Below are positions 1-61,437 of a DNA stretch of 64,000 nucleotides, in pieces. The number at the start of each line of letters is the position of its first letter. Position 1 is the first letter of the stretch. The notes under the pieces were generated by a model. The model saw only the letters and a program-made list of their open reading frames with translations, ran no database searches and had not been told where the DNA came from. A program made the translations under genes and the position numbers. This DNA is from Actinomyces faecalis. Its GTDB lineage: Bacteria; Actinomycetota; Actinomycetes; Actinomycetales; Actinomycetaceae. Location of the stretch: positions 1,426,001-1,490,000 of the forward strand of contig NZ_CP063418.1 in NCBI RefSeq assembly GCF_013184985.2, given 5' to 3'.

Positions 1-1437
1 GAGATGAGGCTCGTCCTGCCTGTTCTCGACGCCGCCCTCGTGGACGCGACGCTGGACGCCATCGCGGGCTCGGCCCGTGCCACGGGAGACGGCCGCTCTG
101 TGTCCCAGCTGCGTGCGGACGCTGTGGTCTCCATGACGCTGAGCCTCCTACGGCGCGAGCAGCACGAGGCTTGTCGCCCTGCTGCGTCCCCACCCGGGTG
201 CTTGCCTGGAGGACGCCCTGAGGCCGCCTCCGGCTCTGGTTCCGGCTCTGCCTCCGACCCCGGCGCCTACGCCCGTACCGTGACCTGGGCAGGGTCTGCC
301 TCCCACTCTCAGGCCACCGGCAGCCATCCCGCTCTTGCCGACGGCGTTCCGCTGCTCCCCCTGCTTGCCGGGCTCAGCACGCTGGTCAGCTCCACGAGCC
401 CGTGGTGGACACCCTCCGGCTCTGCCCCTGTGCTCTTCCCCTCAGGCCTCCAGGTCCAGGTCGATGTCACCGTGCCTGTCGACTACCTGGCGGAGGAGTC
501 CTTCGAGGCCACCAGCGCCAGCTCGCCCGACGAGCCCGCTGGCGCCACCGGCTCGGTCCGTCACCCGTCCGTCCTCCGCCCACCCGTGCTGAGCGTCCAG
601 ATTGGTCGTCATACTCTCCCCGTACCATCCTACGTCGCGACAGCGCTCGCATCCGGCGGTACCTGGCGGCGTCTGCTCACCGATCCTGTCTCAGGCGCCG
701 TGCTGGATGTCGGCCGCCGGCGCTACAGACCGCCAGCGTCCCTGGCGGAGGCGGTCCGGGCCCGAGACCACACCTGTACGCATCCAGGCTGCACCGTGCC
801 CGCGCGCGGCTGCGACCTTGACCACGTGGTGCCCTGGAGCGCGGGCGGAGCTACCTCGTTCGATAACCTCACGCTCCTGTGCCAGGCCCATCACCGGCTC
901 AAGCACACACCAGGGTGGTCCCTGACGCGCCTGGACGACGGTGCGCTCCTGTGGCGCACACCGTCAGGGGCCCGCTACCGTCGAGACCCCGACGGCGGCA
1001 TCACCATGCTTGCGCGCCGGACCGGTCCGCGCTCTGTCCACCGGGACGTCGAGGCGGTGCCTGCGCGCCTGGCTGAAGCCGTCAACGAGTCGGTCATCGC
1101 TCAGATTGACCACGGCCTGGCGCAGACGATGTCGCAGGCTCCCGGCGGGAGCAGGTCGCCAGGTCAGTGGCAGACGCGAGGGCCTCGTCCCGGCGAGCCC
1201 GTAGGTGCCTGGCGCAGTGAGCCCTATGCTCCTGAGCTGCACGAGCTCGGGCTTGACGTCCTCCTCGACGAGCTGGTGCCGTTCTCGCCGACTGGTGTCG
1301 TACCCGATGCTTCTGCCCTGTCCGCGACCGCGTCGCTGACCGTCTCCTGCCCCGGTCCTCAGTGGCAGCAGCCGCCGGCAGCCCCTGCCAGCGTGCGAAG
1401 CGTGGCGATCGAGGCGGCCGCGTCCTCGCTCTTGTAG
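1..1437 (+). CDS. DUF222 / HNH endonuclease domain protein (5' end outside window)
   Basis: The reading frame is open to the left edge (a Glu codon precedes the first ATG at position 4), so this is probably the C-terminal 478 residues of a longer DUF222-HNH protein. The HNH motif lies around residues 250-300 of the visible part: CxxPGC, then DLDHVVPWSAGG, N of SFDNLTLLC and HHRLKH. These supply the zinc-type Cys pair and the His-Asn-His metal site of the nuclease fold. The middle of the protein is Ser/Gly/Pro-rich low-complexity sequence. DUF222-HNH proteins are abundant multicopy genes in actinobacteria, and their function is largely unproven (suspected mobile or DNA-damage-linked nucleases). 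The 3' end overlaps the convergent rpe gene by 79 bp. Family assignment is firm; biological role is unknown. Confidence 0.82.
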   Translation, partial: EMRLVLPVLDAALVDATLDAIAGSARATGDGRSVSQLRADAVVSMTLSLLRREQHEACRPAASPPGCLPGGRPEAASGSGSGSASDPGAYARTVTWAGSASHSQATGSHPALADGVPLLPLLAGLSTLVSSTSPWWTPSGSAPVLFPSGLQVQVDVTVPVDYLAEESFEATSASSPDEPAGATGSVRHPSVLRPPVLSVQIGRHTLPVPSYVATALASGGTWRRLLTDPVSGAVLDVGRRRYRPPASLAEAVRARDHTCTHPGCTVPARGCDLDHVVPWSAGGATSFDNLTLLCQAHHRLKHTPGWSLTRLDDGALLWRTPSGARYRRDPDGGITMLARRTGPRSVHRDVEAVPARLAEAVNESVIAQIDHGLAQTMSQAPGGSRSPGQWQTRGPRPGEPVGAWRSEPYAPELHELGLDVLLDELVPFSPTGVVPDASALSATASLTVSCPGPQWQQPPAAPASVRSVAIEAAASSLL

Positions 1438-3664: not shown

Positions 3665-4629
3665 CAGACCGCTCCGCCGTCGGCGTCACGGCCCGCCGGC
3701 TGGCCCAGGACCGTGCCGGCAGCCGGATGGGCCCCGCGGGCCCAGGCGTCAGCCGCCATCCACTTCTTCCCTGCCGGCGCCACCTGTCCCAGGCGCACGG
3801 CGCAGCCACCGGTACCGACCAGGACCTCGTGCTTGGAGACCTGGAGCATGCCGGCTGGCAGGTCTGTCACCTCGGGGACCTCGGTGACCGGACCGAGTCG
3901 CAGCCTGGTGCCCTCGTAGGTCGTGTGCGCACCGGGGGCAGGAGTGACACCGCGCACCCGTCGGTCGATCGCTGCCGCGGTCTCGGTCCAGCGGATCTCG
4001 CCGTCGGCCGGCGTGAGCACCGGGGCCAGGGTGACCCCGTCCTCGCGCTGGGGCACCGGCCTCGCCGTGCCCGCCTCCAGCTGCTCCAGGACCTCCGCGA
4101 CGAGCGGGACACCTGCCTCGGCCAGGCGGGACAGCAGCTCGCCGGCCGTGTCGCGGTCCTCGATGCTGGCGGTGACTCGGCCGTAGACCGGACCGGTGTC
4201 CAGTCCCTCCTCCAGACGGAAGACGCTGGCACCTGTCAAGGTGTCACCGGCGATGACAGCTCGCTGGACAGGAGCAGCGCCCCGCCACGACGGCAGCAGC
4301 GAGAAGTGGAGGTTGAGCCAGCCGTGGACGGGGACGTCCAGGAGCACGGCCGGCACGAGACGGCCGTAGGCGACGACGACGGCGACGTCAGCGTCCAGGC
4401 TGCGCACCCACTCCTGGGTCTCCTCGTCCTTCAAGGTGGTCGGAGTGCGAACCTCCAGGCCCGCCTCACGAGCCAGCGCAGCCACCGGCGAGGGGTGCAG
4501 GGTGCGGCCACGGCCCTGGCGGGCGTCAGCACGGGTCAGGACACCGACCACCTCGTGGTCAGAGGAGTCCATGAGCCAGCGCAGCACGGGCAGGGCGACC
4601 TCGGGGGTGCCGGCAAAGAGAACACGCAT
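3664..4629 (-). CDS. fmt: Methionyl-tRNA formyltransferase
   Basis: This 321-residue protein formylates initiator Met-tRNA using 10-formyltetrahydrofolate. It begins MRVLFAGTPEVALPVL, the standard Fmt start. The formyltransferase signature follows: NLHFSLLPSWRGAAPVQRA with catalytic Asn/His, then the downstream Asp in LEEGLDTGPVY. The C-terminal tRNA-binding OB-like domain spans ~205-310. ATG 4629 is preferred over an in-frame ATG three codons upstream because of homology to the family N-terminus. It heads the fmt-rsmB-rpe unit; priA, usually its neighbour, is separated from it here by the fucosidase and HAD genes. Confidence 0.96.
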   Translation of the reverse strand: MRVLFAGTPEVALPVLRWLMDSSDHEVVGVLTRADARQGRGRTLHPSPVAALAREAGLEVRTPTTLKDEETQEWVRSLDADVAVVVAYGRLVPAVLLDVPVHGWLNLHFSLLPSWRGAAPVQRAVIAGDTLTGASVFRLEEGLDTGPVYGRVTASIEDRDTAGELLSRLAEAGVPLVAEVLEQLEAGTARPVPQREDGVTLAPVLTPADGEIRWTETAAAIDRRVRGVTPAPGAHTTYEGTRLRLGPVTEVPEVTDLPAGMLQVSKHEVLVGTGGCAVRLGQVAPAGKKWMAADAWARGAHPAAGTVLGQPAGRDADGGAV

Positions 4630-25270: not shown

Positions 25271-25282
25271 CCCCCCCCCCCC
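25271..25282 (+). repeat. 12-C homopolymer upstream of a Tat-exported protein gene
   Basis: Twelve consecutive C lie 111 bp before the ATG at 25394. Two other Tat-protein genes in the window also have C-tracts (10 C each) upstream. Unlike those, this tract has no TTGACA immediately before it. Long C runs are prone to slipped-strand length change. Confidence 0.85.
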
Positions 25283-25393: not shown

Positions 25394-26413
25394 ATGCCAC
25401 TCGCCTCACCTTCTTCCTCACGGCCCACCGCGTCCCTGCCGCGGCGCGGACTGATCCGCGGGGCGGCTTGGTCCGTCCCGGCGATCGCCATTGCCGCCGC
25501 CGCTCCTGCGGCCGCTGTCAGCAGTGACCGTAACGTCCCCGATGGTAAGAAGGGCCCTTACGGCTTGTACGTCAGCGCCGCCGCCACAATGGGTGGCACC
25601 GGTTACGCCGGAGGAAACAACAACGGCGGAGCCTACACGCAGCCTGAGCCCACGTCTGACGCGTTATGGAGTGACGCCAGGGGCTACCCTGTCGGCAGCT
25701 ACTACACCAACGGTGAAGGCGATTTCACCCCCTACTCCAACTCCCGCTCCGGAACGCAGAACACCTATGCCTCCACCAGCGGTTTCTGGTGGCAGGCTCC
25801 TCGCGATGCGAATGGTGAATTCATCAAGAGGTCCACCGCCACCCTGGTCAAGGGCGCTACCTTCGTCACCAAGGTCACTGCGGTCTTCCCCGACACCTGG
25901 GAGCCCAATGACCCCGCTACCACCCATTTTACCAACTGGAACGGTCTGTGGATCACGGACCAGCGCACCATCTGGGCGGACGACAAGGGCCGCGAGGGCA
26001 CGAGCAACACCCAAGCCCTCGGGGCGCCGACACACCCCGTGGCCTTTGACAACACTCCTCACACCTGGACGGCCACCCCGCTGACGTACACCAAGCAGCC
26101 GGACGGATCGTGGCTAGTGGAGGGCACCATCACGGCCACCACGACCCGAGACTCCAAGATCGAGGTCACTGCTCAAGGAGGCAGGACCTATGGGCAGGCC
26201 CGGTTCATGCCGTCGAATATCCTCATTCAGACGAATAACGGGTGGTTGGGCTTCAAGCTCACCTCCTGGGTCCAGAACGCGACCCTGACCTACACCGTCC
26301 CGGCCGGGGCGGGCCCCGCCCCGGCTCCCAGGACCATCACGAATGACCTGACACAGACCACCTTCATCCGCCCCGCGCGTTCACAGGATTACTGGGGAGA
26401 CCGCAGGCCCTGA
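25394..26413 (+). CDS. Tat-exported protein of unknown function
   Basis: The protein has 339 residues. A twin-arginine signal lies at ~12-42: PRRGLIRGAAWSVPAIAIA followed by an Ala-rich stretch and an AxA-type cleavage site. It closely matches the signals of the two proteins at 58.8 and 60.2 kb. The mature part is rich in Gly, Asn, Thr and Trp (GFWWQAPRDANG, FTNWNGLWITDQ), has no cysteine or membrane helix, and resembles no family I can name. ATG 25394 is preferred to the adjacent TTG. The gene is inserted between nusB and pyrR, an otherwise conserved junction, and is closed by a 26-bp hairpin. Codon use is less GC3-biased than in the housekeeping genes. Confidence 0.8.
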   Translation: MPLASPSSSRPTASLPRRGLIRGAAWSVPAIAIAAAAPAAAVSSDRNVPDGKKGPYGLYVSAAATMGGTGYAGGNNNGGAYTQPEPTSDALWSDARGYPVGSYYTNGEGDFTPYSNSRSGTQNTYASTSGFWWQAPRDANGEFIKRSTATLVKGATFVTKVTAVFPDTWEPNDPATTHFTNWNGLWITDQRTIWADDKGREGTSNTQALGAPTHPVAFDNTPHTWTATPLTYTKQPDGSWLVEGTITATTTRDSKIEVTAQGGRTYGQARFMPSNILIQTNNGWLGFKLTSWVQNATLTYTVPAGAGPAPAPRTITNDLTQTTFIRPARSQDYWGDRRP

Positions 26414-58724: not shown

Positions 58725-58751
58725 TTGACATCCCCCCCCCCGCCATATCGT
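58725..58751 (+). promoter_or_regulatory. TTGACA-C10-TATCGT promoter-like module (possible phase-variable promoter)
   Basis: A consensus -35 TTGACA (58725-58730) is followed by T, ten C (58732-58741), GCCA and TATCGT (58746-58751). The spacer is 15 bp, two short of the 17-bp optimum. Each C gained would lengthen it. A near-identical module lies at 60017-60043. Homopolymer spacers are a known way of varying promoter strength in other bacteria; here that role is inferred. Confidence 0.6.
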
Positions 58752-58837
58752 GACGGCGACGAGGCCGTGTTGCGCAGTCGCGAAGTCGGCCATCGTACGC
58801 ACACGTCATCTCCCAGACCCCGTGAGGATCGACTCGT

Positions 58838-59989
58838 ATGTCCCCTGTCTCCCGTCGCGCTCTTGCCCGAGGTGCCGCCTGGAGCGTGCCCGCCGTCGCC
58901 TTCGCTGCGGCAGCGCCGGCTACCGCGCTCTCATGCCCGCCATCCGTGAGAGATGATGTGGAAGCCGTCTTCAAGGCCCACAAGAGCCGGCTGCCCAGCA
59001 TGGAGGGGGTCGACCTCGTCTTCAGCTTCCACAGCGCTGGCCACCTCAACGGCGCTGGCGGCGAGAACTCACTCCACCTCGTCAACCGTGGCACCGTGGG
59101 GGTTGACGCCTCCACCTTCCCCTTGCGCATCGACTTCGGCTTCAAGCACGTGGACACCTCCCCGGCGGTCAACACGACGTTCAAGGATGCACAGATCTCT
59201 GGGCCGATCGCCGCTAACCGTGAGGCCATCAACGTCCCGTGGAATCCCGCAGGCAACAACACCACGGAACCGGCAGACGCCGCCTTCGTTGGCCAGTGCA
59301 GCTCTGACCTCAAGGCCGTGGAACGCCGCGACCTGTCCTTCGGCTCCAGCTACCTGGACGTGCGCAACCCCGTCACCGGTGAGCTCCTTCGCGAGAAGGG
59401 GTTCGCGGAGCTGGGCGAGGAGTATGCGACCTGCATGCCTGACAGCGGCGGCGCGTACGGGTACGCACTGGTGTTCCGTCGCACCGTGATGCCCGACGAG
59501 CGGGTCAACGTGCTGGCCTACCGCCTGCGCGACGGCAGCGCCTCAGGGACAGGGACGGGGCGGATCTACGTTGCCTCGGGCATGCGCGTGCGTGGCTACT
59601 ACCCTCCGAGCTGGGAGGAGCTCGTCTCCGCCGTCACGTGGAAGTATCCCAACCTCAGCGAGGAGGACGTGGCCGGCTGCTACCGCCAGGCCTATGACGC
59701 CCGGGCTGAGCAGTGGTACGCCAGTGGCGAGAGCCTGGCCGGCGCAAAAGTTAGTATTGCGGGCTGGTCTCGTTTCTTTGACCCCGACGCGGACGTCGCG
59801 GGCTGGACACACCCCACTGACGGAAACATGTGGACTTGGTCTCACGAGGTGGGAAGCTTCATGTCCGGCGGTGACGAGGCCCGTCAGGACCGGATCACGT
59901 CCGTTGCGCAGTGGAGCCCCACACTCGTCAAGACCAGCTCCAAGACCCAGTCCGTCACCGAGCTGCGCCACCGCGACGGGATCATCTAA
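58838..59989 (+). CDS. Tat-exported protein of unknown function, paralogue 1
   Basis: The 383-residue protein opens with a Tat signal (~1-31: SPVSRRALARGAAWSVP, Ala-rich core, AxA site). The mature part carries four cysteines at positions also Cys in the next gene (SCPPS, GQCSSD, ATCMPDS, AGCYRQAYDAR), suggesting two disulfides, and ends HRDGII. Shared blocks include GRIYVASGMRVRGYYPPSW and WSHEVG. No known domain is recognised. ATG 58838 follows GAGG at a 10-bp spacing like its paralogue. The C-tract promoter module lies about 90 bp upstream. Confidence 0.82.
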   Translation: MSPVSRRALARGAAWSVPAVAFAAAAPATALSCPPSVRDDVEAVFKAHKSRLPSMEGVDLVFSFHSAGHLNGAGGENSLHLVNRGTVGVDASTFPLRIDFGFKHVDTSPAVNTTFKDAQISGPIAANREAINVPWNPAGNNTTEPADAAFVGQCSSDLKAVERRDLSFGSSYLDVRNPVTGELLREKGFAELGEEYATCMPDSGGAYGYALVFRRTVMPDERVNVLAYRLRDGSASGTGTGRIYVASGMRVRGYYPPSWEELVSAVTWKYPNLSEEDVAGCYRQAYDARAEQWYASGESLAGAKVSIAGWSRFFDPDADVAGWTHPTDGNMWTWSHEVGSFMSGGDEARQDRITSVAQWSPTLVKTSSKTQSVTELRHRDGII

Positions 59990-60016
59990 GGCCTGAGCAG
60001 GGAGGCAAAGCCGAAC

Positions 60017-60043
60017 TTGACATCCCCCCCCCCGCCATATCAT
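60017..60043 (+). promoter_or_regulatory. TTGACA-C10-TATCAT promoter-like module (possible phase-variable promoter)
   Basis: TTGACA (60017-60022), T, ten C (60024-60033), GCCA and TATCAT (60038-60043) match the module at 58725 base for base up to TATC. The 15-bp spacer is short, and changing the C count would shift it toward or away from 17 bp. The module's right half is also a hairpin: CCCGCCAT/ATGGCGGG around ATC (60031-60049). Confidence 0.6.
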
Positions 60044-60071
60044 GGCGGGGACGCGAGACAGATTGTCCCTT

Positions 60072-60120: not shown

Positions 60121-60186
60121 GACAGCCACCAGCACTCTATGCGACTTAGCAGGTCTTCCCATAGAGTGCTGGTGGTGCCGGCTGTC
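60121..60186 (+). promoter_or_regulatory. Long leader hairpin 2 (16-22 bp stem)
   Basis: A perfect 16-bp stem (60126-60141 with 60160-60175) has an 18-nt loop. It is extended by GACAGC (60121-60126) pairing with GCTGTC (60181-60186) across a 5-nt bulge. It sits 61 bp before the start codon and has no U-tract, so it may be an attenuator, an RNA-protective structure or a regulator-binding site. Confidence 0.6.
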
Positions 60187-60246
60187 AATGATAGCCTGCC
60201 CTTGCCGTACTGATAACCCATCTCCCGAGACTGAGGAAGACCTGCT

Positions 60247-61437
60247 ATGTCCCCCGTTTCTCGTCGAACTCTTGCCAAAGGCGCCGCCTGGAGCGTGCCG
60301 GCGGTCTCGCTGGCAGCTGCAGCGCCCGCGCTCGCTGCCTCCTCTGAGGCCTGCCCGCCCGGCATTGTTGCCACAGCCACGTCAGAGGTCGAGGCGTGGT
60401 TCGCTGTCTACAAGGCCGCCCTGCCTGACATGACGGGCATCAAGTGGGCCGTCGCCCACATGGCGACCATCAACAAGAACGGAGCCCTTCACAATCCCGG
60501 CACCCTGTTCAGCAACATCGGGGAGCGTGAGGTTGACCTGGAGGCCCATCCCTTCATCTGGGAGGTCGGCGTCATGAACGTCGGCCTGGGCGATGGTGTC
60601 GCGATTGACACCTACTACCCGCCGTACCCGAAGAACACCGATCCCAGCACGGATAGCACAAATGTTCGGCAGACCTGGCACCCTCAGGGTGTTGCCGTGG
60701 GTTCCCCGATTGCCGAGGCAGGCAGGGAGCCCAAGCAGGTCTACACCTGCACGGGCAACCAGCGTGACTTCAACATGTCCTCATCTTACGGCCACCTGGT
60801 GAACCCCGAGACCTTCAAGAATCTCGGGCGTTCTGCCGTGACCGAGGAAGAGGGCGCGTGTGTCACGGACTCAAGCGGCCGAGGCTACCTCAGCTATCAG
60901 TTCGCGCACACGAGTACGTCGAGCAACAGGCCCGGGCGTGTGGTCACCCTGTTCGCCTACCAGCTCAGGGACGGCTCGTACGACGGAGGGACGATCTACG
61001 TCTCCCAGGGTATCCGTCCCCGTGGGTTCCAGCCGATGACGTGGGAGGCCGTGATGACCGCCGCCAAGGCATCCCACCCGGAGCTGTCCGACGAGCAGGT
61101 CAACAGCTGCTACCGGGCCGCCTATGACGCCCGCGTCAGCAGGTGGTTCTCCACACCGGATGACTTCCTGCGCAACGCGGAGATCTATGCGACGGGCTTG
61201 CGCAACTACCACGACCTGACTGTCACGACTGGTATCGGGAGCGGGCGCCGGGAGATCTTCACCTACTCGGGCCACGATGAGCGCGACTACACGCCCATCA
61301 CCACCTCCGAGATGATCTGGTCGCACGAGTGGGGCAACCACATGGCTAGGAATACCTCCTCGACGATCACGCCCCAGCCAGGCGCACCGGACCTTGATGA
61401 CTACCTGTGGCGGCGCTACCGCGACGGCATCATGTAG
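60247..61437 (+). CDS. Tat-exported protein of unknown function, paralogue 2
   Basis: The 396-residue protein has a Tat signal (~1-31: SPVSRRTLAKGAAWSVP), nearly the same as its upstream neighbour. Cys positions EACPPG, YTCTGN, GACVTDS and NSCYRAAYDAR correspond to those of paralogue 1, and the end reads YRDGIM versus HRDGII. GTIYVSQGIRPRGFQPMTW and WSHEWGNHM are other shared blocks. The mature part has no known domain. ATG 60247 follows GAGGA at a 10-bp spacing. The ~195-nt leader contains two hairpins, unlike paralogue 1. The tandem pair looks like a local duplication that has since diverged. Confidence 0.82.
   Translation: MSPVSRRTLAKGAAWSVPAVSLAAAAPALAASSEACPPGIVATATSEVEAWFAVYKAALPDMTGIKWAVAHMATINKNGALHNPGTLFSNIGEREVDLEAHPFIWEVGVMNVGLGDGVAIDTYYPPYPKNTDPSTDSTNVRQTWHPQGVAVGSPIAEAGREPKQVYTCTGNQRDFNMSSSYGHLVNPETFKNLGRSAVTEEEGACVTDSSGRGYLSYQFAHTSTSSNRPGRVVTLFAYQLRDGSYDGGTIYVSQGIRPRGFQPMTWEAVMTAAKASHPELSDEQVNSCYRAAYDARVSRWFSTPDDFLRNAEIYATGLRNYHDLTVTTGIGSGRREIFTYSGHDERDYTPITTSEMIWSHEWGNHMARNTSSTITPQPGAPDLDDYLWRRYRDGIM

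Follow-up and report, generated by a model that had tools for sequence, protein, structure and literature searches.

Homopolymer tracts that alter the promoter of a surface-protein gene are a known kind of switch. The porA promoter of Neisseria meningitidis reportedly carries a homopolymer in the spacer between its -35 and -10 elements, and one is also said to lie in or beside the spacer of the Neisseria opc promoter, with tract length setting the distance between the two elements. In Bordetella pertussis, a C-stretch stands in the promoters of the fimbrial subunit genes fim2, fim3 and fimX; according to the available part of the report, its length influences transcription and the promoter element also contains a conserved fim box (PMC1891110). 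Among Actinomycetota, excerpts of a Gardnerella study place ~70% of G/C tracts of at least 8 no more than 300 bp upstream of an ORF, in many cases at genes for surface proteins (Rib-domain and LPXTG proteins included) and also for methyltransferases, and describe one tract that varies between colonies by Sanger sequencing (PMC11287997). For Mycobacterium tuberculosis, the accessible text describes upstream homopolymer indels at espR/espA that tune secretion genes (PMC11898584). Phasevarions, as set out in the available sections of PMC12707154, involve homopolymer slippage that alters the expression of restriction-modification genes.

For Actinomyces, no such switch was found described in the literature searched: the open-access matches listed held no account of homopolymer phase variation in this genus, subscription papers lying mostly outside the search. 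A review of phase variation contains no word starting 'Actinomyc' (PMC11868660), and in the available text of a second review the relevant terms occur in unrelated places (PMC8286834). The first-pass annotation had called such promoters uncommon in Actinomycetaceae, which agrees with this result for Actinomyces but has to be set against the homopolymer phase variation known in other Actinomycetota, namely Gardnerella and M. tuberculosis.

The locus considered here lies in a 64-kb stretch of Actinomyces faecalis DNA (the window; the source genome is G000 below), where two similar modules each precede a gene for a putative exported protein.

58725..58751, plus strand: module 1, predicted promoter (TTGACA 58725-58730, T, C10 58732-58741, GCCA, TATCGT 58746-58751; spacer 15 nt)
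58838..59989, plus strand: gene 1 (383 aa), with the RR-type signal MSPVSRRALARGAAWSVPAV; neither Pfam nor NCBIfam gave a match
60017..60043, plus strand: module 2, predicted promoter (TTGACA 60017-60022, T, C10 60024-60033, GCCA, TATCAT 60038-60043; spacer 15 nt)
60247..61437, plus strand: gene 2 (396 aa), paralogue of gene 1, with an RR-type signal; neither Pfam nor NCBIfam gave a match

What the first-pass annotation had read from the letters was borne out. The perfect -35, the ten C, TATCGT or TATCAT and the 15-bp spacer are exact at both sites, and the modules, described as near-identical through their first ~25 positions, share 27 contiguous identical bases (ACTTGACATC10GCCATATC), their likeness continuing beyond the -10. 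The tandem genes likewise appear to encode paralogous exported proteins, 34% identical, each beginning with a clear RR-type (Tat-like) signal. Gene 1 starts 86 bases past module 1 and gene 2 starts 203 bases past module 2. Across the 2.70-Mb genome, the pattern TTGACA-N0..16-GCCATATC has two matches forward and none reversed, and a related pattern was absent from all 38 other genomes searched (24 of the same genus, 14 of the same order). Within the window, on both strands, only the two modules fit TTGACA-14..19-TANNNT. A C9 run by itself is not unusual for the composition of the window, which holds eight overlapping C9 9-mers where shuffled versions give 3.7 +/- 2.3, with at least 8 in 5 of 100; the unusual part is the placement of the tracts and their link to one gene family. 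Neither viral contigs nor plasmids gave a match to the module, and Rfam gave none in the window at gathering thresholds. That module 2 is palindromic after TTGAC prompted the idea of insertion-sequence ends or REP-like palindromes, which was discarded because module 1 is not palindromic, there are only two occurrences and no plasmid matches.

We consider it probable, at about 0.7, that the modules are slippage-prone spacer promoters of the genes that follow them, belonging to a set of contingency loci in G000 and in a second species represented by genome G018. Each module would be the promoter of the next gene, with the C tract forming most of the spacer between -35 and -10. Replication slippage would add or remove C and so step the spacer by one base at a time through 14, 15, 16 and 17 nt, C10 corresponding to 15 nt and C12 to 17 nt, and genes 1 and 2 would shift between weak and strong transcription independently. 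Sigma-70-type promoters usually have spacers of 16-18 nt, and polymerase contacts the two hexamers best at about 17 nt; a standard promoter scan with a 16-18 spacer does not report either module. A 15-nt spacer is short for a promoter of this type, so C10, found at both modules in the one assembly (one genome per species), may represent a state of low or no transcription; the present output is probably weak.

Like porA and opc as they are said to be built, the modules have a homopolymer of at least 8 between -35-like and -10-like hexamers, whose distance its length would set; unlike them, they occur in another phylum, before genes for unrelated, putatively exported proteins, and serve two tandem paralogues with further members elsewhere. 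The likeness to the Bordetella fim genes is a C tract in the promoters of several genes, although here TTGACA stands one base from the tract and the fim element, in the available text, has its fim box (PMC1891110). The Gardnerella tracts share the phylum but sit beside different proteins, and placement in a promoter spacer is not among the features described in the accessible portion of that study (PMC11287997). The M. tuberculosis espR tract, also in an actinobacterium, is shorter (7G), lies at a predicted transcript start and, in the extracts available, acts through the 5' UTR and not through a promoter spacer (PMC11898584). The modules would offer promoters at which spacing, output and slippage are all directly measurable.

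Gene 2 has structure of its own around and below its module.

60030..60050, plus strand: hairpin in module 2, 9 bp, perfect, CCCCGCCAT-ATC-ATGGCGGGG, fold z -3.07
60126..60175, plus strand: leader hairpin of gene 2, 19-nt arms, 95% complementary
60143..60251, plus strand: complementary 17-nt arms, 60143-60159 and 60235-60251, 94%, pairing the loop side of the leader hairpin with the gene 2 RBS and start codon

The first hairpin includes the C tract's 3' end and overlaps the -10 element. Together with the similarity that runs past the -10, it could be taken to mean that GCCATATCRTGRCGGSGACG is an operator, or that module 2 acts as a gene 1 terminator or another RNA or DNA hairpin, which we regard as very improbable: module 1 folds no better than its shuffles (z 0.62), confining the hairpin to module 2, and module 2 has no T run after it and is not reported by a terminator scan, on which grounds the terminator was rejected. 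As for the leader, its RNA fold has a z of -4.68, and it exceeds the gene 1 leader, which lacks the hairpin stretch, by 117 nt. A search of four genomes for the leader hairpin and its RBS-complementary arm gave only short matches besides itself. The stretch 60126-60251 is a candidate translational switch, or else an invertible segment of ~75 nt, and the module 2 hairpin and structured leader could give gene 2, and not gene 1, an additional level of control.

The AF2 model of gene 1 is of low confidence (pLDDT 60.7), and its Foldseek matches are weak, with TM-scores to the query of at most 0.22; the structure was left out of the evidence. A protein search returned six sequences: the gene 1 product and relatives with identities of 71-45%, one of which is labelled as a protein from an Actinomyces urogenitalis MAG. 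Against named genome contigs, gene 1 as the sole query gave nothing; an alignment (A1) gave eight loci, three of them in Actinomyces.

Genes 1 and 2 belong to a family with a common RRxLxxGAAWSVPA export signal. A profile of this signal (A2) identified seven members in G000, 14 in G018, six in genome G002 and three in genome G016. Two more genomes gave one weak hit each, and 43 of the 49 genus genomes gave none. A third member lies within the window, again behind a C tract.

25271..25282, plus strand: C12 tract upstream of the third family member, no clear -35/-10 flanking
25394..26413, plus strand: third family member, 339 aa, signal SLPRRGLIRGAAWSVPAIAIAAAAPA

We counted as tracts all C/G runs of at least 9, and assigned them to a family member when they lay within ~240 bp upstream of its RR codons or in its first codons. 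In G000, six of the seven members have such a tract (C10, C10, C12, G11, G10 plus G11, and C9 in first codons), and the seventh appears, from its sequence, to stand directly behind another gene. In G018, 7 of the 14 members have one, two further members have a tract inside the gene, and two members are interrupted at their tract. One orthologous pair (MLTPP-RR/MLPPP-RR) carries C9 and C10 in the same first codons in the two species, in frame in both. None of the six G002 members and none of the three in G016 has a tract, so such genes can manage without one. Since G000 holds only 35 tracts in total (G018 holds 40 and G002 20), chance accounts poorly for the association: the Poisson P comes to 6e-13 with tracts spread uniformly, to 2e-7 with tracts restricted to 12% of the genome (an assumed share) and to 2e-6 with 8%. 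The corresponding values in G018 are 2e-12 (uniform) and 4e-5 (assumed 8%).

A MutS_V domain was found in none of the 12 genus genomes tested, against 11 of 14 control genomes, so slippage would not be corrected by MutS-type repair; NucS, which is not known to correct indels, was present in all 12 (and in 7 of the 14 controls). The tracts are also strongly polarized. In G000, the 15 C tracts before 1.29 Mb all lie on the minus strand and 19 of the 20 after 1.45 Mb lie on the plus strand, which puts C on the presumed lagging strand, where GC skew is negative on that arm, in 34 of 35 tracts; the lagging strand was assigned from the change of skew as a mark of the replication arms, the origin itself not being located. 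Skew estimated from 31 loci is positive at 13 of 14 before 1.35 Mb and at 2 of 17 after. At a skew of 0.05-0.07 the expected share of tracts with C on one strand is 71-78%, and at 0.2 it is 97%. Mutation pressure may therefore set the base of a tract, C or G, and the pattern suggests that tract base follows the replication strand.

One could go further and hold that C runs simply build up in non-coding DNA through GC skew without MutS-type repair, their proximity to the family having no function. A local skew near 0.2 could suffice for the bias, and 31 of the 35 G000 tracts fall outside scored ORFs, by a crude ORF score that leaves at least two tracts in coding starts among the 31. We nevertheless find this account quite unlikely: mutation pressure leaves the placement beside one family unexplained, the association persists in both genomes under the assumed 8% restriction, the G002 members lack tracts although that genome has 20 of them, and tracts within conserved genes are retained between species.

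We scored 11 upstream tracts of the family, in gene orientation, against 124 other tract orientations in G000 and G018, using 35 of the 35 tracts of G000 and 38 of the 40 of G018 (two near contig ends without 60-bp flanks were dropped); the pattern had already been noticed when this promoter score and the test for TTG were devised. A TTG at most 12 nt 5' of the tract occurs at 7 of the 11 family tracts versus 9 of the 124 others (Fisher 2e-5), and at 5 of 9 versus 9 of 124 once the two modules that prompted the test are removed (6e-4). By the -35/-10 score, family tracts rank above other tract orientations (P 4e-4) and have a slight advantage over the same 11 when these are scored on the wrong strand (P 0.044). 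Four of the 11, including the C12 at 25271, have no good flanking -35/-10 pair, and a strict TANNNT -10 is present at only four.

The gene 1 orthologue of G018 (54% identical) keeps the layout upstream, CTTG-tract-TANCGT-GTGAC, with TTGCGC-17-TAACGT across a C11; in this pair the putative promoter layout is kept and the spacing differs, 15 versus 17 nt. This bears on the idea that TTGACA and TATCRT form an active but fixed promoter, whose C10 never switches, being a static spacer that duplication, or gene conversion with the paralogue, has copied. Such copying would fit two tracts of C10 and an identical 27-bp block before proteins that are only 34% identical, but the C11 of the orthologue is flanked differently, tracts 9-12 long are met again at varied positions beside most family members, and in another actinobacterium a tract of 9-10 varied between colonies, according to the available text of PMC11287997. 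We think a fixed promoter unlikely and slippage-prone spacer promoters the better reading. Upstream of another gene, G018 also has TTGACA-CTT-C9-ACT-TAGGGT with a 15-nt spacer (contig C5; L102/L140).

How far tract lengths can be trusted depends on the assemblies. G000 is in two contigs at 99.97% completeness and the sequence on either side of its tracts is ordinary; G018 was assembled from a metagenome, and its tract lengths are possibly miscalled. In a draft genome, G015, C/G runs adjoin N-filled gaps at 2 of 4 inspected loci (L142, L148, L166, L168); its high tract count is possibly an assembly effect and was left out of the evidence. That miscalled homopolymers produced the tracts as a whole is highly improbable, given the quality of G000 and the recurrence of orthologous tracts in both species, G000 and G018, despite the gaps in G015 and the origin of G018. 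The presence of the tracts thus looks safe, and their exact length does not. Tract clustering is similar in genome G048 and, among the matches listed, in genome G050.

Several tracts lie inside genes, and at two of these the reading frame differs between orthologues, as expected of phase-variable genes. The first is a MmeI-like type IIG gene (identified by Pfam and PADLOC; L131, G000:C1:2660000-2671000), with C10 about ten codons after the start and in frame with it. The G018 orthologue (L136) has C9, which puts the same start codon out of frame with the rest, the difference being relative to that shared start; its long frame is open further upstream, where another start is possible. The second is a DISARM DrmD-type helicase beside DrmMI (L132, G000:C1:1979000-1991000), whose frame is open across an internal G10, whereas in G018 (L137) the frame stops at the tract and resumes in another frame. 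Two glycosyltransferase-type genes of G018 (C21 and C41; L138, L139) have C10 directly or one codon after the start and are out of frame in the assembly. L134 has a G11 at 4164-4174 (G000:C1 ~207663). It falls within the signal-peptide part of a frame of 1403 residues that contains Rib/RibLong and TSP3 repeats and has an LAKTG anchor; the longer N-terminal reading frame ends there, and a short in-frame GTG start is also present. A second tract at this locus, G9, lies ~290 bp upstream of the G11. An acyltransferase (PF01757) gene (L133, G000:C1:2357000-2364000) has an internal G9, in frame.

Taken together, the in-gene tracts look like a set of contingency loci, in which slippage would move several genes for surface and defence functions into or out of frame; they suggest that a component of DISARM defence is switchable by a slippage tract. 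The proposed switching of the MmeI-like enzyme matches phasevarions, and DrmD would extend the scheme to DISARM, of which the available sections of PMC12707154 contain no case. Read with the modules, these genes point to a multi-locus contingency system in Actinomyces. As a hypothesis, the suggestion that C-tract length tunes two promoters is in this sense well supported by sequence comparison, and it is wider than the first-pass annotation saw: the slippage idea extends to most family genes of G000 and to in-gene tracts in two species.

More tentatively, and with slightly less than an even chance in our estimation, the tracts could form a switch set that spans the lineage. The RR-signal family would then be switched member by member, through tracts in promoter spacers or in signal codons, and the glycosyltransferase- and acyltransferase-type enzymes, the Rib-repeat wall protein, the MmeI-like enzyme and the DISARM helicase through tracts within their genes. 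Replication asymmetry, not the gene, would choose C or G, and surface states would be reshuffled along with those of phage defence. Separately, two C tracts in G018 lie within an apparent CRISPR repeat array (L114, G018:C23 ~78310).
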